A stretch of DNA of 64,000 bases from Arbacia lixula. Taxonomy: Eukaryota > Echinodermata > Echinoidea > Arbacioida > Arbaciidae. The translations under genes were made by a program, and so were the position numbers. Numbering within the stretch: the first letter of the stretch is position 1; each line of letters begins with the position of its first letter. This document shows positions 861 through 61,774 of this stretch, one piece after another. Under the pieces are notes generated by a model. The model searched no databases and was not told the DNA's origin. It was given only the letters and a program-made list of their open reading frames with translations. The stretch is from assembly GCA_963669155.1 (NCBI GenBank), contig OZ022593.1, forward strand, positions 19,020,291-19,084,290. The letters run 5' to 3'.

Positions 861-3791
861 TGGGTTGTGTCCATGAACTCCACAACCTAAGAACTAATGA
901 TGAATAATGCATAACGAAATGTGGAAAAAAGAAGTACACAATGCCCAAGCAAATCGGAGATTCAGAGTTTTTTTCAATCTTTTTTTTAATTCCCTTTTTA
1001 CACATTTATCGATGAGCTGTGTTTTAAAAATGCGAGCAATGGATTATGAAATGGAGGAACAGAGGTAAATATCCCAAATCTTTGTGATCTTGATGTAACA
1101 CTTGTAGAAATCACATGTAGACGCCAATTATTCTCCGGTTAACCATACTGCCATACGAGTATGTGTTTCAAGTACTTGAATTAGAAGGAATATTATTGTG
1201 CACGAATACCTGGATTATAATTTTAACTATTGACTAAAGTCAACTCTGCGGTCAGACAAGGGCCATCGCATGTGGTCTGCGACAATATTCGCTAAATAAA
1301 ATCATCATGTTTGCTGTCGATCTAGGACAAGTTACTAATGAGATTAATTTAAGGCAATCAAACTTTAGCCAACTCCGAAAAAAAAGAAGCAGATCGATAT
1401 GGTTCTGCAGATAAACTCTTGCAGTTTCGAGGTCTTAGCAAGTAAATTTGTCAAACGGCGTGCTCAGAAAATCCCTGTATTCATTACCGATAACAAGGTG
1501 TGCACGGACACGTCTTCTCCTGCTGATCAAGCTTTTTTTTTAGTCTGAACCTATATTTTAGTTCGAAGGGGGCTGACGGGATTCAAAGGCCACCTTGTTG
1601 CTATGTAACCATGGAAACAGGTATATATATCGCAATGAACTGAACATTTTCCCTCATTGCGAACCTGTTGTTTATCAATCATGTGTATTGTTAAAGTTCC
1701 GGCATTCACTGTCCTTGCCAGATTTTTTTTCTTTTTGTGGATACTATTTAAATGGAAACATTCAAATCTACAAGAAACCTAGATGTCACCTTACATGCCT
1801 TAGATCACCTTAGATGCTACTAACACGAAAATCATATAAAAAGGGTGTAAGGTGGCATCTTAGGGCGTAGTCTGTGTTTCCAGACAAAATTGTTTTGTCC
1901 AACCTCATCGCATCCAAAACCACAGACCAGGTTCAGCGATCTCGGCTCTATGATGAGCACACCGCTCAAAATTGTCAATTTCTCCAGTGACCTCCAATAG
2001 ATCATCCAACTGCAAACAGGTTAGGATTCTTTTACTTGCTTCTTAAATCCGGATGGACAGTGTCCCACTTTATCTTTCCAAATTTATTCAACCAAATGTT
2101 CCTTCATCTCGACTCCAGACCTCGCTCGCACTTCGTCTTACCTTCAGACACGTTACGGCGACATAGCTCCCCCCCCCCCTCTCTCTCTCTCTCTCTCTTT
2201 CTCTCTCTGAACAGTATTCAGCCCTAATGCAAGATTCCCTACCCTAACACACTGTTATATGCTGAAAAGTCACTTTAACTGGTCAACCCTTTTTCTTAGT
2301 AATATACCCACTCTTACCTCCTCTGTTACAATTTTAGAAAATCTTCACATGTTAATCTCATGCTAAAAGTTGCCAAGGTAATTCCTTTTCAAATTTGGCT
2401 ATTGTGTTAAATAACAACTTGACCAATTTCTTAAATCCATCCTTTAAATTTCGAGCAATAATTTGTTCACTTTATTTCCGGTGTGGATCAATATCTAAAG
2501 CAATATACATGTATTATGAGAAAAGTGTCCTCACAGGCAGCGGTTTTAAGCTTTGGCTATATGGCAATGTCATTTTATTCTCGTAAATAAGAGAGTTGTT
2601 TCCGAAATAAAGCATGCATGAATAGTGAACATCGCCTTTGAACGGTTGTGTATGGATCAATACCCCTTCGTGTTATTATGACAGACGCTTTATTGTACAC
2701 CAGGCTCCTCGATTTCTACAGTAAGTTACTCGACAAACAATCCTGTCTACTGCCCTTTTAGTATTCATGCTTGCGAATGATTGACGTAAATATCAATGGA
2801 ATATGGCGAACAATTTACTCTAGCTGAGGCCGTGAGCGAAATATTATTTATTTAATGAGCGAGGTTCCCGTGAACACAATGTCTCGGTAAATATCAATTT
2901 CAGGCTCCCAAGATAAGATACAACTTAGTTATTTGAAACTTGAAATGCAGAACGAATACCTATCTTGACTTAAGTGCAGACATTCGCTGCGGACCGAACA
3001 AATATTAGGTTTGCGGAAGACCACTGCTTTACATGAATACAAATAATACATATCTCCTTTTGATCGATACATTATAGTGGTTACATCCCCCGAGTTGGTG
3101 AGATGCGGATGTGCTCACAGGCTCGACAGGGGGAATTTAGATACATCGAGAGGGACAAGGTTTGCTGACACGTGTTGTGCGATACCATGCCCTGAGCAAT
3201 GCATATACGTGAACCAATTTACGTAAGGATAGTAGAGAAACCAGTAATTCAATTTGGCTGAAAATGAGCTTCCAACAGGGTGTAATTGGTGTACAAACTG
3301 GTCAGTAATGGACACGTCTCCCGACACTACCCACGCCCACCCCCACCCCACGCTAAATACTCACACCCACCACAAGCACTAAACGTAAAACTCATCCAAA
3401 CCACTCACCCCACGCTTTTCACCCCCCTCCCAACCATAATTTTATCCTCACTCCACCTACCCCTCGCTCAATATCCACCTCCACCCATCAGCCTTACCCT
3501 TCCCGACATCCTTTACCCACACGTACGCTCAGTTGTTCGTCGTGACATTGGCATTAATTCCAAAATGGATTACAGAGAACACTTAAGCAACCTGTTTCTT
3601 CTGTCAATACGTGAATTCGATATCCTCCCAATTCAAATACACCGAGGGAGACACGAGTGCATGATGGGAGTAGAAATGATCTCCATGGTAACTGCTTGTC
3701 GGTGATTCCGCTCAGCGCGAGGGGTGTAATAAAGGTAAAACTTTTTCGTTCTTCATGTCACACAGCTTGCCAGCATCGTCGCAGAGGAGTC

Positions 3792-4913
3792 ATGGAGATT
3801 GAGTATGCCACGGGAAACGAGACATCGCCGGACGATTCGAGCTCCTCGTCATTATCGGTCGACCTAGTAGTTGCGTCTTCGTTCCAGATCATATTCGGAG
3901 TGGTCGGCTTGTTTGGGAATTTCCTGTGCTTTATGGTTCTGAGACGTCAGGCGAAAGAGAATCACACGAATTGGCTCATCATTTCTCAATGCATGATTGA
4001 TCTGCTTACGTCGCTGATCCTCATCGTTGCCACCATCCATCTCAACTGGTTCGCCCGCGTGCCTGACCAGCCCGGAGCTGGTGCTGTGTTGTACTGTAGA
4101 GTTTGGAACTCGCAGGTGCTAATATTCTGCGGCTTTGCCATTTCGACGTTCAATCTAACGGTTATATCCGTCGAGCGCTACGTCGCCGTCGTCCATCCCG
4201 TGCTGTACATGACGCGGTTTAAAACACGACATGTCGTTTACATCCTCGCCGTTATATCTTGGCTTATCGCGCCGACGTTGCAAATCATGTTTGCGGTGAC
4301 GCTTTTCCACTACGAGGATGGTCGTTGCATCGTCGATGACCTCAGCCGGACAGTGACGGCGTTGCAAGGTGCGGGAGTATTTGCTTTCGAGTTTTTCCTT
4401 CCCTCAGCCACCATGGGGTTCTCTTTCACAAAAATCGCGTTCAAGCTACGCACGCTCAACAGCATTGGTGCCGGAGCCCCTTCCGCTAAAGAAACGTCCT
4501 CATCTCGCGTCGACACCGTGCCGTTGCAAACGACGTCGAGCAACGCCGAAGATGGTCCAAGGTCTGTATCTCCATCTCGCATCACGACACGTGACTCGGA
4601 GACTGATCACAGTAAGCCGGCGGCGGCGGGGAAAATGGAAGACGGCAGAAATCTTCGACGTCGAAACATTACCATTACCCTCCTGATCGTTTACGTGACG
4701 TATCTGGTTTGCTGGACGCCCAACCAGGTGGCGTTTCTCGCCTACAACCTCGGCTGGATACCGGACTACATGGGCAGTACTGCCCATCTGACCACCAGAG
4801 TGCTGGCGACGTTGAATATTTGCGTCAACCCGATCGTGTACGCGTTGCGCTACAACGCGTTCAAGAAGGGGCTGAAAGACGCCGTTCGTCGCTGTTTCCG
4901 CCCGTGCTCATAA
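3792..4913 (+). CDS. Orphan rhodopsin-class (class A) G protein-coupled receptor, intronless
   Basis: This is a 373-residue seven-transmembrane receptor, expected at the plasma membrane and signalling through heterotrimeric G proteins. Visible class A hallmarks are: an acidic, Ser-rich N-terminus with an N-glycosylation site (N9); GN in TM1 (G42-N43); D70 in TM2; C102 at the start of TM3, pairing with C179 in loop 2; ERY (128-130) in place of DRY; W157 in TM4; a long, Ser/Thr- and Arg-rich third intracellular loop (about 220-292); CWTP (307-310) in TM6; NPIVY (346-350) in TM7; and cysteines 368 and 372 for palmitoylation. The chosen ATG has a purine at -3 and G at +4. An in-frame ATG at 3657 would add 45 residues with no signal peptide. 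The CWTPNQ plus YNLG pattern resembles the large lineage-specific receptor expansions of invertebrate deuterostomes, so no ligand can be assigned. The coding region is visibly richer in G+C and CpG than its flanks. Confidence 0.93.
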   Translation: MEIEYATGNETSPDDSSSSSLSVDLVVASSFQIIFGVVGLFGNFLCFMVLRRQAKENHTNWLIISQCMIDLLTSLILIVATIHLNWFARVPDQPGAGAVLYCRVWNSQVLIFCGFAISTFNLTVISVERYVAVVHPVLYMTRFKTRHVVYILAVISWLIAPTLQIMFAVTLFHYEDGRCIVDDLSRTVTALQGAGVFAFEFFLPSATMGFSFTKIAFKLRTLNSIGAGAPSAKETSSSRVDTVPLQTTSSNAEDGPRSVSPSRITTRDSETDHSKPAAAGKMEDGRNLRRRNITITLLIVYVTYLVCWTPNQVAFLAYNLGWIPDYMGSTAHLTTRVLATLNICVNPIVYALRYNAFKKGLKDAVRRCFRPCS

Positions 4914-17682: not shown

Positions 17683-17759
17683 ATATTGTGTCTCGCCCAC
17701 TTGCGAAAATAACCAGAAATATCGCGATCTCCGTTGCTACGCAAAAGAATTGTATTCCT

Positions 17760-18858
17760 GACCTCAAATGACCTTTGACCTTATCCTGTGACCTCCAACG
17801 GTACCATAACATGAAGGTACCCCCAGTGCATCTATAACCCAAGTTAGGTTGTAATCCAATCAACCTATGTGAAGTTATTTGTCAAAAGAGAGTCTAGCAG
17901 GTAAACTTTAACGTATGACCTCAAATGACCTTTGACCTTATCCTGTGACCTCCAACAGCACCATAACATGAAGGTACCCCTAGTGCATCTATGACCCAAG
18001 TTAGGTTGTAATCCAAGCAACCTATGTGAAGTTATTTGTCAAAAGAGAGTCTTGCAGGTAAACTTTAACGTATGACCTCAAATGACCTTTGACCTTATCC
18101 TGTGACCTCCAACGGCACCATAACATGAAGGTACCCCCAGTGCATCTATGACCCAAGTTAGGTTGTAATCCAAGCAACCCATGTGAAGTTATTTGTCAAA
18201 AGAGAGTCTTGCAGGTAAACTTTAACGTATGACCTCAAATGACCTTTGACCTTATCCTGTGACCTCCAACGGTACCATAACATGAAGGTACCCCCAGTGC
18301 ATCTATGACCCAAGTTAGGTTGTAATCCAAGCAACCTATGTTAAGTTATTTGTCAAAAGAGAGTCTTGCAGGTAAACTTTAACGTATGACCTCAAATGAC
18401 CTTTGACCTTATCCTGTGACCTCCAACGGTACCATAACATGAAGGTACCCCCAGTGCATCTATGACCCAAGTTAGGTTGTAATCCAAGCAACCCATGTGA
18501 AGTTATTTGTCAAAAGAGAGTCTTGCAGGTAAACTTTAACGTATGACCTCAAATGACCTTTGACCTTATCCTGTGACCTCCAACGGTACCATAACATGAA
18601 GGTACCCCCAGTGCATCTATGACCCAAGTTAGGTTGTAATCCAAGCAACCTATGTTAAGTTATTTGTCAAAAGAGAGTCTTGCAGGTAAACTTTAACGTA
18701 TGACCTCAAATGACCTTTGACCTTATCCTGTGACCTCCAACGGCACCATAACATGAAGGTACCCCCAGTGCATCTATGACCCAAGTTAGGTTGTAATCCA
18801 AGCAACCCATGTGAAGTTATTTGTCAAAAGAGAGTCTTGCAGGTAAACTTTAACATTT
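17760..18858 (+). repeat. 157-bp satellite, seven near-identical units
   Basis: Units start with GACCTCAAATGACC at 17760, 17917, 18074, 18231, 18388, 18545 and 18702, a constant 157-bp period. Units differ at only a few positions. Each carries TGACCTCAAATGACCT, TGACCTTTGACCT and TGTGACCT, meaning four copies of the AGGTCA half-site read on the minus strand with spacers of 7, 1 and 4 bases. Confidence 0.95.
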
Positions 18859-19349: not shown

Positions 19350-20689
19350 TCAAGAATGCATTTTTTCATGTCTTGCTAGGTTTCTCTTTCCAGAAAACGT
19401 CTTTTTGCAAACACCACAAGCAAATGGTTCGACTCCAGTATGCTTTCTTTCATGTATTACTAAATTACTCTTTTGAGCAAATTTTTTCCTACAAATAGTA
19501 CACGCAAATGGCTTGACTCCAGAATGTGTTCTTTCATGTGACACTACATGATTCTTTTGAGCAAAGTCTTTACCACAAATACTACATACATATGGCTTGA
19601 CTCCAGAATGTACTCTTTCATGTATTACAAGATAGCTCTTCTGAGAAAAGCCCTTCTTGCAAATATCACAAGCAACTGGCTTGACTCCAGAGTGTGTTTT
19701 TTCATGGTTTACTAAGCTGCTCTTTGTTAAAAACTCATTTTTGCAAATACCACAGGCAAATGGTTTGTCTCCAGTATGTATTCTTTTGTGGACTTCTAGA
19801 TTTCTCTTCATTAAGAACTCTTTCCTGCAAACATCACAAGCAAATTGCTTGACTACAGAATGGATTCTTTCATGTATTAATAGATTGCCCTTTTGAGCAA
19901 AGTCTTTACCACAAATACTACATACATATGGCTTGACTCCGGAATGTATTCTTTCATGTACTACAAGATAGCTCTTTTGAGAAAAGCACTTCTTGCAAAT
20001 TTCACAAGCAAATGGCTTGTCTCCAGTATGGATTCTTTTATGGACATCTAGATTTCTCTTTGTTAAAAACTCTTTGGTGCAAATACCACAAGCAAATGGC
20101 TTGACTCCAGTATGTGTTCTTTCATGGATTTCTAAATTACTCTTTTTTAAAAACTCTTTCCTACAAACACCACAAGAATATGGCTCGACTCCAGAATGTC
20201 TTCTTTCATGGATTTCTAGATTTCTCTTTTCTAAAAACTCTCTCCTGCAAATACCACAAGCGTATGGCTTGACTCCAGAATGTATTTTTTCATGTATTAA
20301 TACATTGTTCTTTTGAGAAAACTTTTTACCACAAATACCACATGGATATGGCTTGACTCCAGAATGTACTCTTTCATGCATAGCTAGACCGCCCTTCTGA
20401 GAAAATCTCTTCTCGCAAATACCACAAGCATATGGCCTGATTCCAGAATGAGTTCTTTTATGTGCTATAAAGCTTCTCCTTTGTGTGAATTCTTTCTTGC
20501 AAATACCACACACACATTTATATGCACCTGGCTCTTCTCCTGGCTGTGTTGTGTTAGTGGGTGATTCTGCACGGGCCTGCACAGCATCTCTTGTATTGGT
20601 GGATGGGCCAGGACTCTGATGATGATCCGCTGGACGGCACTCAACCATAGATGACAAGCTTTCATCTTTTAGCACGCCAGGGCTGGAAA
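19350..20689 (-). CDS. THAP/C2H2 gene exon 7: fourteen C2H2 zinc fingers
   Basis: This last exon of 446 codons plus two carried bases has the acceptor TTTTCTCCAG. A second AG seven bases further on would break frame. It starts with VLKDES (LKDE, another SUMO-type site), then has a Pro/Ser/Thr/Glu-rich spacer and 14 fingers of C-x2-C-x12-H-x3-H with TG/SG-x-KP linkers. All zinc ligands are intact. Helix residues at -1,2,3,6 run QRSA, QGGM, QNNI, ERNI, KSNI, TRNV, QSYV, QGNI, MRNV, TSSN, QSYI, QNHS, QSNI, GRNR. The stop follows the last finger by two residues. Confidence 0.92.
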
Positions 20690-23600
20690 CTGGAGAAAAC
20701 CACAAAAAAAAAAACATCACTAATCGTGATATCAACTGTTATATTTCACGGACAAAGAAAAAAAAAATGAAAATTTACGATTTTTTTTAACCCCTACCAC
20801 TAGCTGAGTTTTCCCCCAGATCTCTGGGGAAAAGGAAGCTAGATTTATGCTCAGTGTGACGGTGAACTGTGGCTGCCTGCTGGTGCTACTAGCTGCCGAT
20901 CAGCTTAATCAGTGACAGTTGGCAACTGAGTAGACCTATTTAGTATTAGGTTAACTGTATATAATTTGTTTACTCACAGACTTAGACTTGCTACCTTCAT
21001 CATGTTAGTGTTAATGGCCCAGCAAAAAAAGCTCACTTTTTCTTGTGTTAAAAGGCTAAGGCGAAACAAACTTTCCCTTTCCAGGAAAGTTGAAACGGAA
21101 TTTCAGATTTTGTTTCAATGGAATATCACTCTCCCTTTTTTTAGTCGAGTGAAATAAAACTTTTAAATTGGATAAAATATTATTTGTGGATGGTTTCTTA
21201 ACACTGATGCTCGGGTATCAACTATCGAGCGTTGAATGCTCATGATTAATGATATTATAATTTGTAGTCAGTGCAGCAAAATTATGAAAATTCAATCAAA
21301 CTCATGCTATGTAAAAGCAGCTCCGGTCAAGCCTAAAATAGCTCTCGTAAAAAAAAAATATGAGCATGTTTTTTCATACAAAATCCAAAGAGTATTTTTT
21401 TTTAATGGTGAGTGTGAATGGGTCTGAAATGCATAGACCAGCTTGTTTATGTTTGTACATAAGACAAGCCTTGCTGCTAGGTTAAAATCCTTTTGTATAC
21501 CTGGGCCATGTTGCATATAGGTTTTCAATTACTGTAACTTACCATCAGTGATAACTACCATGGCAACAGGTGCATTAATGAGAGCTCATTGGCGGTTGCC
21601 ATGGTAGTTACCATTGATGGTAAGTTACAAGAAATGAAAACCTACTCGCAACATGGTCCTGGAGTGTTTATAAGCTGATGCAGCATTGGTGAGCATTCTT
21701 TCTTACCTGGTTCACGCTTGATGATCGGAGAGATTTTCTCTGGACTACAGGTGTCACCTGGTAAAGTTGTGTCTCCCATCTCCAACCCTCTTACTGGACT
21801 TGGTACAGTGTCATCTGTGATGCAAACACACAAACAACTTAAGAGATTTACCACTCACCAATATTGATTCGTACTCAAGCATGTCTTCAGTAATTTGATC
21901 AATCATTTACATTTAGCCAAGCCTAGATGACAGGTCAAGATCATCTTTGTGCCACCTTCATTAGAACTCATTCTCACCTGGTTCTAGACACGAAAAACCA
22001 TCTTATTTGGGGCATTCTTTAATCAACATTACCTTTTTTTTTTACATACACCCGAAAAAGTAGGGCATTCACAGGGGCCAGATGCAAGCTCAGCAGATCC
22101 AAAGAACTACAGAGACTGACATTTTGGTCTAACCTGGTTCATGCTGGATGAGAAGAGAGAATTGCCCTAAAGTGCAGCTGTCATATGGTGATGATGTGTC
22201 CTCTGTTGTTGGGCTTCTTGGCAGGTATGTCTCAATCTCATCTGCAAAATTAACATACAAAGCATGCAGTTTAGACATCTTGTGTATTTTTTTCATTTCT
22301 TTACTATATTTTGTCACCCATTAACACCTAGAACAATTCAAAATGTCTCTTCTAAGTTCACTGCCATGGCTTGATATTTTCCTGAAGTGGCTTTCCATAG
22401 TTTTCTATCGAAAGCGCCCTAATCATCATTTCAATTCCTGCAGGGCAGAGTGAAAAGCAAAGAGGTGGAAAATGGACAATTGCTGCTCTTCATTATGAAA
22501 ATAGGTGTTCTGGGCTCCGTAACATAAAGGTTTGTGATCAATTGCAAATTTGAAAGACAAATTGTGATTACTGGTAAGTCTTTTGAATAATAAGTACATG
22601 TAACAACGGTGTTGATTGGCCATTGCCATTATGCGATTGATCGCAAACCTTTGTAACGGAACCCTTTTCAATACAGTTTGAGTGGCTAATTGATATCAAA
22701 TATTGACCCTGAATGCCTCCATTGAAATTATTGTTTTGTTATCTGGATTAATTCACTCTGGATGAATCTGTTATCACACTTTCGGATGTCATCTTTGCGC
22801 ATATACTTTTTTCAACATTGAAACATTAAGTTTGGCAATCCTGGGGTTTGGGGGTCTATGGTAAATTATTTAAGTTGATCACTTCAGCCGAGGCTCTAGG
22901 CTATAGAGTTAGGGTTAGTGTTAGGTTAGGGTTAGGTTTAAAGGGCATATACTGTACTGGGAAGGCAAAAAAGCCTTCAAAAGGTAATTGTTAGCAATCT
23001 TCTTGCCAATGGTCTTAAATGCATGTTTTGTCCATTTTAGAAGCTTGCTGAAAGTTATTTGCTCTGAAATGATCTACATATGGAGTAATGAGTGATTAAA
23101 CCAGAAATCCTCAAAATGTTCGGCCCGAACATGTTGAGGATTTAATCATTAATAATTAATTACTCCAAATGTGGATCCTTTGAGGGCAAATAACTTTCAG
23201 CAAGCTTCTAAAATGGACAAAACATGCATTTAAGACCATTGGCAAGAAGATTGCTAACAATTACCCTTTGAAGGCTTTTTTGCCTTCCCAGTACAGTATA
23301 TATGCCCTTTAAGGTCGAGGGCAGGGGGTCCCAGTTGCAAAAGTCATGGAGCTATGCAGGAATCAGCAGTATACTCTAACGATAACATGTATGAAATCTC
23401 ATAGTCATAGCTTCGCAAACAGGAAATGTGAAAAACTATCCTCCTTTGCGTACGCACCAACCATAGTCTACATTCATAATTGTCCCTGTCAGCGTGCAAT
23501 GTGGGCGTTGCTCCCGGTCAACGCATGCACTGTGGAGCAGACCGGTGCGGACAGCGGTCTCTAGGCTATAGAATTTGAACGACTCACCCCAAACCTCCTG

Positions 23601-26600
23601 AAAATTCTAATTTTGCTTAAAATCAGTTTCCAGTTCTATTCCTCGGATGGGAGGTCTGATTCAGTTCAGTATCATCTTTCACTTTTCATGCTGTTTAAAA
23701 TAAAATTATTTTTTTTTTACCTCCAAAAGGGACACCCTTTCTTCATGTCTTAATCCGAGCCCTAGGTAGCAACCTTCAATAATTTAGACCCCTTAAACCA
23801 TTTTTGCCAGAAGGTCACATTGAAATTAAGGTCCAATTGATGCACATGTTTATGTTGTAATCTGTTACACAAATGCAGCCTGAAATTAGTTAGAAGTTGA
23901 CAGCAACTCATTGAGCAAGAGAGATATTTGCATTCAGATTATCTTCAAGGTTTTTTTTAATCTCCTTTTAGAAAAACCCTGGGCAAACCTGTATTTTAGG
24001 GTACTGGATACAGTATCGGTTGAATAACAGCTTAAAGTTAAACTCAACAAAATTAGGTAAGTGTGAGGATCCAGTCTAGAATAGGGTTAGGGTTAGGGTA
24101 GGGTAGGGTTTAGTGAGGTTAATATGTGATTTTAGAACAATTTTATGGCCCGGAAATCTCCAAACCTAATAATTTCAATCAAGCACAGCAACTCTCAGCC
24201 ATAACATGGGTTTTAATGGCTTTTCAATATGAGTGCACACACAAAATAGCATGCATGTCCGTATTTCCCTATAATAACAAAAAGGCCAAAAAATTTCTCT
24301 ATTTAACCTCACAAAACCCTACCCTAACCCTATTCTAATTTCTAGTCTGGATTTTCACCCTAACCTAATTTTGTTGAGTTAATTCACATTGGTCCCCTGA
24401 AGTACATGTTTGCCAAACCCTGACCATTAAACAATTTATTGTGAAACTGTGTCGCAGGTGGAAAAAGAAATAGTGCATTGGTGCCCTCTACAGCACGATT
24501 CTCTGAGGCGATGTGTTTGAGCCTTGTTGAGGGCTCAGAAAATTTGTGTTTTTTATTACTTGATTCTCCATCGGGGGGGGGGGGGGGGGGGGGGTTCACC
24601 AAGCTATTGTTAGCTAAAAACGGCTTAATGCATGACTGGTGACCCTTTCTTGTGCTAAATGAGATATCACACTTTGTTCCTGTTCTATCAGAGTGGGAGT
24701 TAATTTCCAACAATCCTAATCAAATTTTACAAATTGGACTTTGCATTCAGACACTTGTTAGAAATTTTTTTTTTTTTATAAATATCAGATTTTGAAATTA
24801 AGCTGACAGGAATCAAACTCATTGAGAATCTGATTTAGCACAAAAAAGGTCACCAGTCATGCGTACAGTCGTTCATAGCTGAAAGGAAATATACTGTACT
24901 GGGAAGACAAAAAGCCTTCAAAAAATGATCGTGAGCAATCTTCTTGCCAATAAAAATCGTCTGGAATTCATGTATTGTCCATTTTAGAAACTTGCTGAAA
25001 GTTATTTGCTCTCAACTGATCCTCATGTGGCGAAATTAGTGATTAAATCACAAATCCTCAATATGTTCGGGCCTAACATTTTGGGAATTGTAATTTTATG
25101 ACATATGTGGATCATTTGATAGCAAATAACTTTTAGCAAATTTCTAAAATGGACAATACATGAATTTAAGACCATTGGTGAGAAGATTGCTGACGATCAT
25201 CCTGTTGAAGGCTTTTTGTCTTCCCAGTACAGTATATGCCCTTGGAGAAACAGCTTGGTTTTCACCAGTTAGTAGCGCTATTTCTTACCTGGTTCACGTT
25301 TGATGACCAGGGAGATCCCCACTATGGGACAGATGTCATATGATGATGGTGTATCTCGACTATCTTCCATCTTGTCAAATCCTGATGCTGAGATTACCAG
25401 AGCGTCATCTGCAATGGGAATGTTTTGTGCACAATCAGAGCTCGTCATATTCTCTTTTCAAAAGTTTCACAAAACCTATGTAAAAGAGAAACACTTGTTA
25501 TAGAGCAGTTGCTCTTCTAACTTGTTAGACAGGAATTCTGTCTTTTTTTTAGAGGTAGACTATGTTTCTTCCTAACATATTAGCATATCTTTTATGTAAT
25601 AATAAAAAAGTGCAAATACATGCTAAGGCTAAGCTAGGCTGGAGATAGCTAAAAACATCTCATTCTGGCCATTCTTTAATTAATTTTTTTTTATGTAAGT
25701 AGGGCATTCAGAAGAGCCAGATGCAACAACCTGTACAGAGACTGAATTGTCTAAGCTAGGGGTGGTATTCCGAAATGCTCAAATCTAGGATTCTCCTAAG
25801 TGGTAAACCAAAATTCCGCTCCTAAGTTTTCTCTTTATGCATATGTATGCAAATCATAAAGTTAGGAGGATTGATATTCCAGAATGTGTGTATGAATAGA
25901 TTTAGGAGAATAGTTTTGAGAAAAGTTAGGAGAGCCACCCCCTGTCTAAGCCATTCATAACACACGCAATAAAAAAGAGCAGCATTCATTTGCGTACATG
26001 ATTGATGTGCACGCACATAGTTGCGTGTCCACAGACTTAGGATGAAACCTAGGGGAAAATCTTGATGAGATGTTGTTTATTTAATTTATTAATTTATTTA
26101 ATTTCTCCTTGGCGGGTGGTTCGAAGAACGCCTGACACCTTATGCTGCGGGTACGGACCATCGACTTGAAAGATACTTGAGTGTTTGAAATGAAATCCAT
26201 ATATATGTACACAAATTATGCTCAATAAAATTAACAAAAACACAATTTGGAAGCTCTGAATATATTTGGATGGTTTTACAAATTAAGAAAATCTATAGAT
26301 ACATTCATTATTGATATCTATCTATGTATAGGGGTAATAAGAAAGAATCCAGATTTTTTTTTTTTTTTTTAAATGTATCATTTTGGAATAATGTCATAGT
26401 GTACTTACTTTGTACTCTTGTGGCAACTTTCTTCACTTTCATTGAAGTTTCAAATCCGACAGATCGCAGGGATTTCTGACCCTCAACTAGTGCTGCATGT
26501 TTCATCTGTAAGAAAAAAGAGGAGGGGAGAGAGCTACAATTAAGAGATGAAGTATATTATAAAATTGATATATAGTTATGATATATCTTGTAAAGATAGT

Positions 26601-29600
26601 ACAAGTTCCCTGACCCTGGGGGCTCCCATGAACAACTTAATCCATAAAGATATCTTTACATAATATGACTTGGCTGGAGTAGTCCAGAAAGAATATTTTT
26701 GGAATCTATATTTTTAACGGAGGGGGCTATGCCCCCCCCCCCCTTCTGGGGGGTGGTGTACCCCATTTGAACAAACTTAGATTCCCTCCCCCTAAGGATG
26801 ATCTCTACCAAGTTTGGTTGAAATTCAGCTCTTGGTTTTGGAGAAGGAGCAAAAAATGTATAGTTTACAAACGTTGTACGCCCAACGAAAAGCAACAGCA
26901 TAAGCTCACTTTGAGCTTTCAGCTCAGGTGAGCGAATAATATAATATGCAAGCTTGCATAGATTTTATGCATTACCTGTTGATGTAATTCCTCAGTTGAC
27001 TGTGTCTCATTATTGACGTCCATGTTCTCATGAAGGTCCCATTGACTACACCCAGGGGCATCTCCTGGGCCATCTCCTGGGTCACCTACTGGGTGACCTA
27101 CTGGGTCACCTCCTGGGTCACCTACTGGGTCACCTACAGGCTCCTCCTCTGGTTGTGGTTCCTGCTCATGTTCCGTGGCCTCTTCAGGCCCTTCATCTAG
27201 CGAAATTTCATTAGACACAACAGGAGTTCCAAGAAGTTCATCCAGCATCTGAGGGTGTAAAAAAGTTGACAAAAAAAGTGATAATCTCAGCTATTTAACA
27301 ACACATGTAACAGTAAACTAGAGCAATTCGACTGCCACGCAGTCGATAAATATTCCTCCGCCTCTTTTCTAGCTCTACTTAGATTTATTCTCTGAAAATA
27401 TGTATGTTTGGTGGGCAATGTACCATTGAATTCCTATGTGAAAGAAAAATATATTCTGTGTTTCCATGTTAAGCCAAGTTTGACAATGTTCATTGACCTT
27501 TGACCTCTTATCTCTTGACTTCCAATCCAATTTTATCAAATATGCCATCAGAAGTGATTCATCTCTGTACCATGTTTGGTTGGAAAGGAATGCATAATTG
27601 GAATTGGATTTATTGTGAAAAATTTCAATCAATTTTAGCCAGTTTTGGCAAAGTTCATAAATCTTTGACCTCTGACCTTTAGGAATTTTACCCAAACTTT
27701 AACCAGTCTATCCCCATGAGGTGATACATTTCTGTACCATGTTTGGTTTGAATTGAAACATCAGATTTTGATTCAATGTGAAAAAAGCCAATTTTGGCAA
27801 ATTTGACCTTTGACCTCTGACCTTTGAAAAATTTCACCAAAAATGTTATCAGTCTACTCCCAAGTAGTAATCCATCTATGTAGGCCTACCATGTTTAATG
27901 AGAATTGCATCCTTGGATTTGGATTTATTGTGAAGGTCAATTTTTGGCAATTTTTCACAAAGTTCATTGACCTTTGACCTCTGACCTTTCAGGAATTTTA
28001 TCAAAAATGTCACCAGTCTACCCCCAAGTAGTGATCCATCTTTGTACCATGTTAGATGAGAATTAATTGAATCCTTGGATTTGGATTTAATGTGAAACAG
28101 GTCAATTTTGGGCAATTTTTCACAAAGTTCATTGCACCTTTGACCTCTGACCTCAACAAGATTTGACCCCAATTTTACAAACTTCATTAGTTTTACGCAA
28201 TTCACACATGTAACAAGTATGAAGCAAATCTGGTCAACAGTTCTCAAGATATTGCCTAAACGGATTCGGGACGGACGGACGGACGGACGGACAGACAACC
28301 CAAAAACATAAACAGCGGAGGCAAAAAAAATGTATTTCTAGTAAAAGTAGGCCTACTAGTCGTGTCATCATGTGCCATTTCCTACACAGATTTCCAGATT
28401 TACGTAATTAAGTAGTGTGAAAAATTTAAAGTTATTTTCAATTGCAACAATCAAAATTTCCATGATTACAACTAGGTAGGTATCACTGGCATTAAAATGA
28501 GCCTCGCCAAATGGTATCGCACAATAACATGCATGCGCAACTAGCCCCGGGATCGGGACTGCTACGCGACGATCTAGCCGTGACTAGCCGACCCTATTTT
28601 TAGCGCATGCAGAGCAGTGAGCCGAGGCTGAGCGAATATTTCTTCGCAATTTACAGGATTAAAGACAGCCAGTCCCTTTTTCAGATCACCACAAAACCAT
28701 CAAAACATTGGCAAAACATAAAAAAGTGTTAGCAAGCTCTATATTCACAATTTGAAACTGATACGTAGTGTAAAATTCAAATAATGCACATAAACAAAGT
28801 CTGATTGATAGTCTTTACCTCAGGCTCTTAGCAGTTTGTGTTGAAATATCTGCTTTATTGATTAATCTGTTTATTAAATTAGAAAACGCATTATGAAAAA
28901 AATTGTTCTATAGAAGGAATAGCAATCCCGTACAATAGAGGACCAGGGTGCATCGCACATATATAATGCACGCAAATGGGAACACTGCAATACCGATTGT
29001 CGTCGGCAGAAAGTGACCTAGAAATCACTTTTTTTGACGAATTAAGCAGTGAAAATTTTGTCTAGGGTTAGGGTTAGGGTCAGTGTTAGGTTCAGAATTA
29101 GGTTTAGGGTTAGGGTTTAGGGTCAGGGTTAGGTTTAGGGTTAAAATTCATAAAATTAGTGGGATACCCTGGTCCCCTATTGTACGGGATTGCCGAAGGA
29201 ATCATCTCCAAAGTATGGTAGTTACTCATAAAATTAGGATTTCACACACGCATAATAACCACATAGATACTGTAACAAAGACTAATACTTTTTTCGTAGT
29301 ACGAAAAAAGTCGGTTTGAAATTTAACGGCTGAAATTTTTTACACATACAGAAAGCTTCAACGTGCTATATTCTTAGAAATGGTCTTGAATCACACTTTC
29401 TTCATTTTACGATCGTGATTGACGATTTCAAATTTTAAGCTTGCAAAAGGGACGGACAATCTTTAATATAAGAAAAGCAAAACAACGAGGTATACGAACC
29501 ATGATTTTCTTCCTTTTATCAAATGCTGGTCTGCTCCTTTTCTCCTCCTTTTCTTGGGTAGGCCCATTGGTCGGGAGATTAATGACGGGGACCGCATCCA

Positions 29601-29844
29601 ACTTCAACTTCCTCCTGAACTTAATGTTGAACTCCGCATACAGTCCCGCCGGCTCGTAGGCATCGTCGGGGAAGTGAGCGCCGCAAATTACGCTACTGTC
29701 GCTGGGGCCTTTCCAATTCGCACGAGTCAGCCTTACTCTCGCTGACCAAATTCGCCGTAAATTGTCATCTTTTGGGAAGAAGTGCAGGCTCACACCATTT
29801 TTGGAGGTGTTACTACACCCTGCCACTATGCACCTCTTCGGCAT
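19350..29844 (-). CDS. THAP domain plus 14 C2H2 zinc-finger protein (seven coding exons)
   Basis: Exons on the minus strand are 29844-29500, 27248-26976, 26505-26409, 25408-25289, 22241-22134, 21814-21707 and 20689-19350. They total 2391 nt and join in frame to 796 residues ending at TGA (19352-19350). Architecture: THAP zinc domain (1-91), basic stretch (101-113), acidic GDP-repeat linker, a basic segment, three cassette exons ending in EPG, then 14 C2H2 fingers. THAP domains bind DNA through a C2CH zinc centre and C2H2 arrays bind longer sites, so a nuclear DNA-binding regulator or a domesticated-transposase derivative is expected. Splice phases agree throughout (0,0,1,1,1,1). Introns are full of foldback elements. 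Targets cannot be deduced. Main uncertainties are the exon 1 donor and possible missed cassettes. Confidence 0.85.
21499..21664. mobile_element. Foldback element family C, copy 2
   Basis: ACTTACCATCAGTGATAACT pairs with GTTACCATTGATGGTAAG around a GAGCTCATT core. The ends read GGGCCATGTTGC and GCAACATGGTCC. It lies in the last intron of the THAP/C2H2 gene, 43 bp from exon 6. Confidence 0.7.
21707..21814 (-). CDS. THAP/C2H2 gene exon 6: cassette exon C ending IKREPG
   Basis: The exon has 108 nt, phase 1-1, with acceptor CATCACAG and donor GAACCAG|GTAAGA. It ends in IIKREPG, again a perfect hydrophobic-K-x-E site followed by proline. It is nearly identical at its 3' end to exon 4. Confidence 0.8.
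22134..22241 (-). CDS. THAP/C2H2 gene exon 5: cassette exon B ending IQHEPG
   Basis: The exon has 108 nt, phase 1-1, with acceptor TTTTGCAG and donor GAACCAG|GTTAGA. It keeps the D-x-I/V-x-T/S start, the TSSPYD motif and the EPG end. The position equivalent to the SUMO-acceptor lysine is glutamine (IQHE), so this copy has lost the consensus. Confidence 0.8.
22941..23309. mobile_element. TA-flanked foldback MITE family A, copy 1
   Basis: The element runs from AAGGGCATATACTGTACTGG to its inverted complement, about 369 bp, and is an almost perfect hairpin with long arms. TA dinucleotides flank both ends (22939-22940 and 23310-23311), as expected for a Tc1/mariner-type TA target duplication. It lies in the intron between exons 4 and 5 of the THAP/C2H2 gene. 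Confidence 0.85.
24038..24382. mobile_element. Foldback element with telomere-like arms
   Basis: The arm TTAAACTCAACAAAATTAGG is mirrored by CCTAATTTTGTTGAGTTAA. Internal parts of the arms hold GGGTTAGGGTTAGGG and CCCTACCCTAACCC. The loop is about 165 bp with no coding capacity. It lies in the same THAP/C2H2 intron as the family A copies. Confidence 0.75.
24883..25243. mobile_element. TA-type foldback MITE family A, copy 2 (degraded left end)
   Basis: It shares ATACTGTACTGGGAAG, TTGCTGAAAGTTATTTGCTC and TCTTCCCAGTACAGTATATG with copy 1. The flanking TA has been lost by mutation. It ends 46 bp from the donor of THAP/C2H2 exon 4. Confidence 0.8.
25289..25408 (-). CDS. THAP/C2H2 gene exon 4: cassette exon A ending IKREPG
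   Basis: The exon has 120 nt and is symmetric (phase 1-1), with acceptor CATTGCAG and donor GAACCAG|GTAAGA. It contains TPSSYD and ends in VIKREPG, where IKRE matches the SUMO consensus (hydrophobic-K-x-E). It is paralogous to exons 5 and 6. An intronic block about 250-350 bp upstream of it (25650-25755) is repeated upstream of exon 6. Confidence 0.8.
25756..25943. mobile_element. Short foldback element
   Basis: AGGGGTGGTATTCCGAAATG near the left end faces AGGAGAGCCACCCCCT at the right. Inside, CTAGGATTCTCCTAAG and TTAGGAGAATAG-type words are in inverted orientation. It lies in the intron between exons 3 and 4 of the THAP/C2H2 gene. Confidence 0.5.
26409..26505 (-). CDS. THAP/C2H2 gene exon 3: basic linker
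   Basis: The exon has 97 nt, phase 0 in and phase 1 out, with acceptor TTTCTTACAG and donor CAAA|GTAAGT. It encodes a Lys/Arg-rich segment (MKVKKVATR). No known domain is recognised. It is needed to move the frame from phase 0 to the phase 1 used by all later introns. Confidence 0.75.
26690..26940 (-). mobile_element. Dispersed element ending AGCTCACTTTGAGCTTTCAG
   Basis: The stretch holds a G/C-run hairpin (GGAGGGGGCTATGCCCCCC), the sentence-like segment ACCAAGTTTGGTTGAAATTC and the hairpin AGCTCACTTTGAGCTTTCAG. The combination looks like a short non-autonomous element. Only one copy is in the window, so the boundaries are approximate. Confidence 0.45.
26976..27248 (-). CDS. THAP/C2H2 gene exon 2: acidic linker with GDP repeats
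   Basis: The exon has 91 codons, phase 0-0, with acceptor ACCCTCAG and donor CAACAG|GTAATG. It is Glu/Asp-rich (residues 10-37 of the exon), followed by a short tandem repeat of V-G-D-P and G-D-P units from a 12-15 bp minisatellite (TGGGTCACCTAC on the plus strand). It is probably a disordered acidic region. Confidence 0.8.
27317..28330 (-). mobile_element. (CCGT)n-headed tandem-repeat element family I, reverse copy
   Basis: Read on the minus strand it starts at GCCTCCGC, passes through (CCGT)n and several roughly 170-bp units containing AGGTCAAAGGTCA-type words, and ends GGCGGAGG...GACTGCGTGGCAGTCG...TTGCTCTAG. The same end-to-end order occurs at 51590-52753. The inverted GCCTCCGC/GCGGAGGC termini mark its edges. 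It lies in intron 1 of the THAP/C2H2 gene. Confidence 0.75.
28922..29193. mobile_element. Foldback element with telomere-like core
   Basis: GCAATCCCGTACAATAG plus GGACCAGGGT at the left is mirrored by ACCCTGGTCC plus CTATTGTACGGGATTGC at the right. Between them at 29063-29142 lies a run of imperfect TTAGGG repeats. It lies in intron 1 of the THAP/C2H2 gene. Confidence 0.75.
29500..29844 (-). CDS. THAP/C2H2 gene exon 1: THAP domain
   Basis: This exon encodes residues 1-115, starting at the ATG complementary to 29842-29844. The THAP signature is complete: C5-x4-C10, P24, W33, C54-x2-H57 followed by F, and an AVP box at 84-86. Residues 100-113 are Lys/Arg-rich and could form a bipartite nuclear localisation signal. 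The chosen donor is ATG|GTTCGT at 29500/29499, which keeps phase 0 with exon 2. A nearby GTATAC is a weaker alternative. Confidence 0.85.
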
Positions 29845-31392: not shown

Positions 31393-32848
31393 CGAAAAAT
31401 GAGTCTCTGTAGGACGTTGGATCCGCTGAGATTGCATCTGGCTCCCCTATCTAGACTCGGGGGGTATGTCCAAAAATGTAATTTTGATTAAAAAATGCCC
31501 TGAATGAGATGGTTATTCCTGTCTAGTATGTGGCCTAGGTCTATGTCTTGGTCCTGGAAAGACTAGATACGACTAGCCCAAATCTGTAAATGTATAGAAG
31601 TTGTAGTGATTGATAGTTAGAAACATGTCTAGACTAGACTCTCGATCGGCAGAGTATGGACCTGTTTCTACATTAGAATGCCAGTGACATCTCACTTGGA
31701 CTTTTTTTGGAGCTCACGCTAGCATGAATGATGCTTACTAGAAACCGTTTCTTGAAAAGAATACTACAGTAAGTCAGATATCAGTGACATCTCATGTATC
31801 GATACTGGATTGTAATTTTCAGACAAATTGATAGCCTTTCTCACGAAACTCTGCAATAATTGATAAAATATCAGGTTGAAATATGAAATGGTAATTTTGT
31901 TAAAATATGGGGTGATATGTTGTTTAAAATGTTGATAATCCTATGGCTTGATGTATAACACATCATTTTCATGAAGATTATTGTGATATCAATCTCTCAT
32001 TTTCTTCTGTTTAATCAATTCATGTGGATTTTCTTTCATGCTTTTCATTTTGGTCATATTCGTGTGTAAAGATACCATGTTAATGAGGTTAGAGTTGTCA
32101 TCGTGTCGAGAAACGCGCCCTACACCTGTATGTAAATAAATGGAGAGAGAGGGGCCATCTCTTAAGTCAAGAGTGATGCTTTGTCATCGGGTGTGTTTAA
32201 CAACCTTCAAGTTCAACAAACTATAAATGCACCCATAGATGATGCATTTAGTGTATCAATAGTCTTCAGTTAACCTTTCTAATCATGTTGGAAAACACCC
32301 AGTAGGCTAGAAATGAGTTGATATACTCGGCACATATTAATTATTGATGCATGCATGTTAGGTGATTTATTTAAGTGTTAGGTGGTCGCTAGTACTACAA
32401 ACATGCAAGGTGAAATTCTTCTTACATGTATGTACATTGACATCAGATTTAGACACAGATGCAATTCAGTCAATACAGGGATTATAAGTAATCACAACCC
32501 TTCTCCTATCCCTAAACCTAATCCTTGTCATATTATATCCTTAACCCTACTGTCTCAACCAATATGTAGCTGCTGTGATGGACTGAAAAGGAATTAGAAT
32601 CTGTTGAAGTCATCCATGCTGAAACATGCTCAGCTGCTAGAGACATTGATATCGATGGCTATGACTAGATTATATTTAATATTTAAGGGAAATGTCACCG
32701 TTTTAGATATGAAGAGGTTCTAAATAGATTTCTACAATCTTTTCAGCTCCGAAATGTGCATCAATTTACTTTGTGGTGCAAAAACAGTATCGACTAATGA
32801 TCAGTAATACCCGGTACTGTGTACCGATCGGTAATAGGGTCCTTGGCT

Positions 32849-61246: not shown

Positions 61247-61774
61247 GGGCCCTGTTGCATAAAACTTACCATTGATGGGAACTTTTCTACCAATGGCAAG
61301 GTCTATGGAAACCTTGAATTTGATGGGCTATGTCAAGCTATGTTACCATGGAAGTTAGCATTGATGGCAGAGTTACTATTAAAGGGCATATACTGTACTG
61401 GCAAGACAAAAACGCCTTCAAATGTGAACGTGAGCAATCTTCTTGCCAGTGGTCTAAAATTCATGTATTGCCCATTTTAGAAACTTGCTGAAAGTTATTT
61501 GTGCTAAAATTAACCACATTTAGAGTAATTGGTGATTAAATCACAAATCCTCAAATTGTTCGGGCCGAATATTTCGAGGATTTGTGATTTAATCATTAAT
61601 TACTTCAAATGTGGACCATATGGAGTCAAATAACGTTCAGCAAGTTTCTAAAATGGACAATACATGAATTTAAGGCCATTGGCAAGAAGATTGTTCACGA
61701 TCACCTTTTGAAGGCCTTTTTGTCTTGCCAGTACAGTATATAACCTTTATTGGTTAGCTTTATGTAACGGGGCA
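61247..61774. mobile_element. Foldback MITE family B, copy 5, interrupted by a family A element
   Basis: The left part (61247-61381) runs from GGGCCCTGTTGCATAAAACT to GAGTTACTATTA. The right part (61748-61774) continues the same element as TATTGGTTAGCTTTATG...GGGGC. Between them sits a complete family A element. Confidence 0.8.
61382..61747. mobile_element. TA-flanked foldback MITE family A, copy 3, nested
   Basis: It runs from AAGGGCATATACTGTACTGG to TACAGTATATAACCTT, 366 bp with long inverted arms. TA at 61380-61381 and 61748-61749 is the target duplication, because the uninterrupted family B sequence has a single TA at this point. Confidence 0.88.

Follow-up and report, generated by a model that had tools for sequence, protein, structure and literature searches.

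Whether duplicated exons could set the number of SUMO sites on a DNA-binding protein is the question raised by a C2H2 zinc-finger gene of the echinoid Arbacia lixula. The gene lies on the minus strand of a 64,000-nucleotide (nt) stretch, referred to here as the window (GenBank assembly GCA_963669155.1, contig OZ022593.1, positions 19,020,291 to 19,084,290 of the forward strand), and has three small segments, E1, E2 and E3, 5′ of its finger exon. The explanation favoured here, which is held to be moderately probable on the sequence at hand, is that a small exon of a 14-finger C2H2 gene underwent tandem duplication long ago, thereby repeating a short module with a probable SUMO acceptor at its end. 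The exons concerned are listed below by window position, with a slash at the exon end of each donor.

25289..25408, minus strand: E1, 120 nt, phase 1-1; reads (N)DALVISASGFDKMEDSRDTPSSYDICPIVGISLVIKREP plus a split codon; donor CAG/GTAAGA, score 7.15
22134..22241, minus strand: E2, 108 nt, phase 1-1; reads (D)EIETYLPRSPTTEDTSSPYDSCTLGQFSLLIQHEP plus a split codon, without the acceptor lysine; donor CAG/GTTAGA, score 2.37
21707..21814, minus strand: E3, 108 nt, phase 1-1; reads (D)DTVPSPVRGLEMGDTTLPGDTCSPEKISPIIKREP plus a split codon; donor CAG/GTAAGA, score 7.15
19350..20689, minus strand: last (finger) exon, entered in phase 1 with (V)SSPGVLKDES, followed by 14 C2H2 fingers and a stop

The coordinates proposed in the original prediction, together with the AG acceptors, hold for the three copies, as do the GAACCAG/GT donor (3/3) and the phase 1-1 (3/3). 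One common frame is open in E1, E2 and E3, and both other frames of each copy hold stops. The introns between the copies measure 3047 and 319 nt, and the frame of the finger exon runs unbroken through its 14 fingers. From the splice signals and the frame, we infer that E1, E2 and E3 are exons of one transcript. The exon duplication itself had also been predicted, and the three copies indeed prove homologous at the DNA level beyond chance. In blastn comparisons of the exons with 30 nt flanks, E1 and E2 match over 73 nt (72.6%, E 1.4e-6), E1 and E3 over 36 nt (88.9%, E 3.3e-8), and E2 and E3 over 73 nt (74.0%, E 1.1e-7). A right-anchored ungapped comparison was additionally made over the last 24 codons (72 nt), with codon shuffles (20000 per pair) as the null. 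The three pairs share 48, 48 and 50 of the 72 nt (67-69%), the shuffle means being approximately 19, and the observed identity was reached by 0/20000 shuffles for each of the three pairs, likewise when the last five codons were left out. Tandem duplicated exons are marked by homology beyond chance, found here in 3/3 pairs at the DNA level, and by the same phase at both ends, found in 3/3 copies. By these comparisons, the tandem exon duplication is genuine.

At the protein level the likeness is weaker. Within the window, tblastn gives E 0.001-0.004 for E1-E2, 0.009-0.019 for E2-E3 and 0.17-0.19 for E1-E3. When the last six residues are removed, the observed score is reached or exceeded by 11/5000 protein shuffles for E1-E2, 189/5000 for E2-E3 and 3222/5000 for E1-E3; the protein-level likeness of E1 and E3 depends on the tail. 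The duplication is probably old, because nothing other than exon and donor homology remains. A fourth copy was not found in the window, as a hidden Markov model of the three copies had no further match below E 1.4 and tblastn none below E 0.065. The string GAACCAGGTGAG at 21984 was rejected as such a copy, being a 17-nt match with E 1.2.

The copies follow the pattern D-T-x4-D-x-C-x5-S-x2-I-x2-E-P, in which D, T, D, C, S, I, E and P are invariant in 3/3 copies. The repeated module of 36-40 residues is probably disordered. The N-terminal part of the protein (294 residues) is without a Pfam domain, its sole match up to E 10 being an enzyme at E 0.12, under the cut-off of that family; the repeat region (129 residues), compared with solved structures up to E 10, has a single match at E 0.98.

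All three copies had been read as ending in EPG, which is incorrect. The glycine comes from reading the GT of the intron; no glycine follows EP because the final G of each copy opens the split codon, which becomes GAT (D) or GTT (V) upon splicing. Joins between copies consequently read IKREPDEIE (E1-E2), IKREPDDTV (E1-E3) or IQHEPDDTV (E2-E3), and joins of a copy to the finger exon read IKREPVSSPG or IQHEPVSSPG.

Just upstream of these junctions, E1 and E3 do end in IKREP, matching [IVL]KxE, and E2 has IQHEP, in which the lysine is absent, all as originally proposed. The LKDE of the finger exon is a third match to [IVL]KxE. The claim that this exon opens with LKDE stands as regards the motif but not its place, since its L is residue seven of the exon when the split codon is included. 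The 295 residues that precede the fingers contain three strict [VIL]KxE motifs, more than their composition would lead one to expect, against none in the finger part of 387 residues. Composition shuffles of the 295-residue region contain at least three motifs in 7/20000 cases and at least two in 275/20000; since two of the three motifs are duplicates of each other, the latter figure is the fairer test. In the three copies, the K (or Q) is preceded by LVI, LLI and PII, residues that are hydrophobic save for one proline. The ends of E1 and E3 are probable SUMO acceptors. E3 also matches the synergy-control pattern with flanking prolines, which is taken here, like the hydrophobic-cluster SUMO motif, in its generally known definition. 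In the phospho-dependent motif, ψKxExxSP, a proline follows the serine.

The SUMO consensus types of transcription factors comprise, in the excerpted text of the source, the canonical, hydrophobic-cluster, acid-dependent (NDSM) and phospho-dependent (PDSM) motifs, the latter with a serine five residues after the lysine (PMC3395311). The mostly hydrophobic residues before the lysine in the present copies recall the hydrophobic-cluster type named in that excerpt (PMC3395311). An acid-dependent motif is formed at the copy-copy joins (IKREPDEIE, IKREPDDT), where K+5 is Glu or Asp, and is lacking at the join to the finger exon (IKREPVSSPG). The phospho-dependent motif is not formed either: at the finger-exon join K+5 is Ser, but the Pro stands at K+7 and not at K+6.

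The favoured explanation envisages that an internal exon, of phase 1-1, was copied at least twice in the distant past within a C2H2 gene. These copies would now encode tandem modules of 36-40 residues, with an IKRE end in two of them and the lysine gone from the middle one. Each included acceptor-bearing copy would add a SUMO acceptor N-terminal to the fingers, and SUMO attached at the copies would recruit repressors, as SUMO does on many transcription factors. Expression of the gene, its exact splice pattern, SUMOylation and the effect of the latter are what we infer from the DNA. If transcripts and SUMO assays agree, the locus would be a compact natural case in which a DNA-binding protein owes to exon duplication both the dose of a post-translational control site and the context downstream of that site. 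At present, what is documented is the tandem duplication of an exon in an animal C2H2 gene, and the motifs are suggestive.

Splicing may control the number of SUMO sites. The splice signals were compared with those of two putative upstream exons, which fit in frame 5′ of the copies:

26409..26505, minus strand: putative upstream exon, 97 nt, phase 0 to 1, AG...GTAAGT; donor score 4.06
26976..27248, minus strand: putative upstream exon, 273 nt, phase 0-0, acidic, with GDPV-like repeats; donor score 3.70

Donors were scored with an approximate splice matrix and ranked among the 557 GTs on the minus strand of 29950-19300. E1 and E3 rank joint 2nd (7.15 each) and E2 ranks 22nd (2.37). The acceptors of E1, E2 and E3 have 11, 13 and 13 pyrimidines of 19, compared to 14 for the exon at 27248, 19 for that at 26505 and 16 for the finger exon. 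The idea that each copy can be skipped without a frameshift holds in so far as 8/8 inclusion patterns stay in frame, but this is no evidence for the alternative splicing that was attached to it. Frame-neutral skipping does not discriminate between explanations, because a surviving duplicate of an internal exon must be phase-symmetric. The eight inclusion patterns yield one, two or three strict motifs. Going by donor strength, E2 is the likeliest copy to be skipped, if any is, and its skipping leaves the count of strict sites unchanged.

The most probable alternative is that all three copies are constitutively included, which would leave a simple internal repeat, one SUMO site of which has decayed, and no control of SUMO number by splicing. 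Its chances are put at only a little under even. The strong donors of E1 and E3 fit it, and the symmetric phase is expected of any surviving exon duplicate. Regulatory features were not found either, in a search limited to splice-site strength and repeats. On the other hand, the weaker E2 donor and the pyrimidine-poorer acceptors of the three copies are compatible with partial skipping.

Several observations weigh against the SUMO reading as well. The lysine lies outside the set of residues that are invariant across the three copies. Over the last 24 codons, the ratio of nonsynonymous to synonymous substitution rates (dN/dS) is 0.45 for E1-E2, 0.95 for E1-E3 and 0.98 for E2-E3, which suggests no overall purifying selection in two of the three pairs at this length. 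Over the last eight codons, far too few for a firm value, it is 0.24, 0.30 and 1.34, respectively. Conserved columns are not significantly enriched at the 3′ end compared to the rest (18/25 versus 24/48 nt, Fisher p 0.085), and p becomes 0.20 once the last three bases are removed. In general, short consensus motifs frequently go unused, and the weakness of the E2 donor (2.37) counts on the same side. Part of this evidence is also what would be expected if another motif were the conserved one, be it DTxxxxDxC, the S/T-P sites or the I-x-x-E-P end as a docking motif, with ψKxE being incidental. Both the exclusion of K from the invariant residues and the dN/dS values near 1 point in that direction, and the IVGI and ISLV of E1 fit loose SUMO-interacting patterns. 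This alternative is considered unlikely. Against it, I-K-R-E-P is wholly retained between E1 and E3, and one loss in E2 suffices if the lysine is ancestral, which two agreeing copies suggest, although with three copies and no outgroup it is unproven.

A third alternative, judged improbable, holds that the copies are mutually exclusive, with one per transcript, so that splicing would choose a module that has an acceptor or one that lacks it, rather than set a count of sites. In many cases, tandem duplicated exons are linked to mutually exclusive choice (PMC9013439). However, the introns of 3047 and 319 nt impose no spacing-based exclusion.

Besides the number of sites, the tandem duplication with its probable SUMO ends might affect their type. 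As the extended SUMO motif is interrupted by the splice junction (between K+3 and K+4), the choice of exon would also decide between an acidic K+5, constitutive, at copy-copy joins and a Ser at K+5 with SSP, phospho-regulatable, at the finger-exon join. Very little credence is given to this idea. If true, splicing would toggle one lysine between constitutive and signal-dependent SUMOylation.

The introns around the copies contain repeated sequence, of which one element bears on the extent of the duplicated unit:

25651..25757, minus strand: dispersed repeat X, intronic, 5′ of E1; like 22132-21994 on the minus strand and 31396-31518 on the plus strand; outside the exon duplication

That the intron was co-duplicated, with like blocks 5′ of E1 and E3 marking the duplicated unit, has next to no probability and was rejected: these stretches align at score 71 against a maximum of 25 in 60 shuffles, but the same sequence occurs at 31396-31518 (E 5e-17), and because this third copy is on the plus strand the blocks are a dispersed repeat and not a duplicated unit, the stretches between repeat and exons being unlike (225/300 shuffles reach their score). 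Decayed exon copies beside the intronic repeat were rejected as well, as in nine comparisons (three stretches with three exons) the score was reached by 57-273 of 300 shuffles.

A palindromic element of approximately 365 nt, resembling a miniature inverted-repeat transposable element, is present in three copies that are 81-84% alike (22940-23302, 24880-25250 and 61381-61748). Two of them lie in the E1-E2 intron; their self-complementarity is 91% and 79%, and they could pair with one another. In the intron 3′ of E3, from about 45 nt beyond its donor, two arms of 68 nt (21500-21567 and 21595-21662) are 85% complementary at a distance of 27 nt and could form a hairpin. A tandem satellite (17759-18854) with seven copies of a 157-nt unit and 97% matches lies some 500 nt 3′ of the finger exon.

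At the 5′ side of the gene, the acidic exon 27248-26976 has an ATG immediately 3′ of its acceptor and could itself contain the start codon. A 12-nt coding tandem repeat at 27065-27137 is the source of its GDPV-like repeats. Further upstream, an open reading frame (ORF) encodes a THAP domain:

29431..29844, minus strand: ORF with a complete THAP domain (MPKRCIVAGC...), Pfam PF05485, E 6.4e-15, profile 1-87 of 87

The original prediction placed the copies between this THAP domain and the fingers. That the ORF belongs to the same gene and transcript as the fingers is unproven. With the approximate matrix, the best donor 3′ of the domain, ATG/GTTCGT at 29500, is of phase 0, which would fit, but is weak, with a score of -1.44. 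The ORF has four GTs with scores above 0 (1.2 to 1.9), all of them within the THAP domain, and their use would cut it. At the other end of the gene, the fingers (19350-20560) repeat in an 84-nt register, are 67-79% like a reference copy in 300-nt windows and vary in their contact residues, which suggests that the 14-finger array grew by tandem duplication. Outside the gene, an uninterrupted ORF of 432 residues from stop to stop (3615-4913, plus strand) reads like a rhodopsin-type receptor, a family that we presume from its translation.

Some features of the locus resemble known systems. Finger-associated repeats of frogs have IKEEP-like ends, a resemblance that is not based on sequence comparison. 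Literature on these repeats was not found by title among the matches listed, and duplicated exons with SUMO sites did not occur among the matches listed either, which is no proof of their absence. FiNZ proteins of fish, an example of the large lineage-specific C2H2 families, share a short N-terminal module before a long C2H2 array, a likeness drawn from their description (PMC10547256). Echinoderms possess many THAP genes, and proteins that combine THAP with additional zinc-finger domains are reported in some of these animals and in others, as stated in the excerpt of PMC13228809. The present locus shares with these a THAP ORF upstream of, and on the same strand as, the C2H2 array, the link into one gene being putative; the finger types named in that excerpt are zf-C3HC4_2 and zf-SAP30 (sea cucumber), in contrast to the C2H2 array found here (PMC13228809). 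With tandem exon duplications that are spliced alternatively or in a mutually exclusive way (PMC9013439), the locus has in common that homologous symmetric exons stand side by side in one gene, here with 67-69% nt identity over 72 nt. It differs in that the unit is a short linear-motif module without a Pfam domain. With the SUMO motifs of the excerpt cited above, it shares I-K-R-E-P in two copies and an acidic residue or serine at K+5, supplied by the next exon, whereas here a splice junction is predicted to lie inside the extended motif (PMC3395311).

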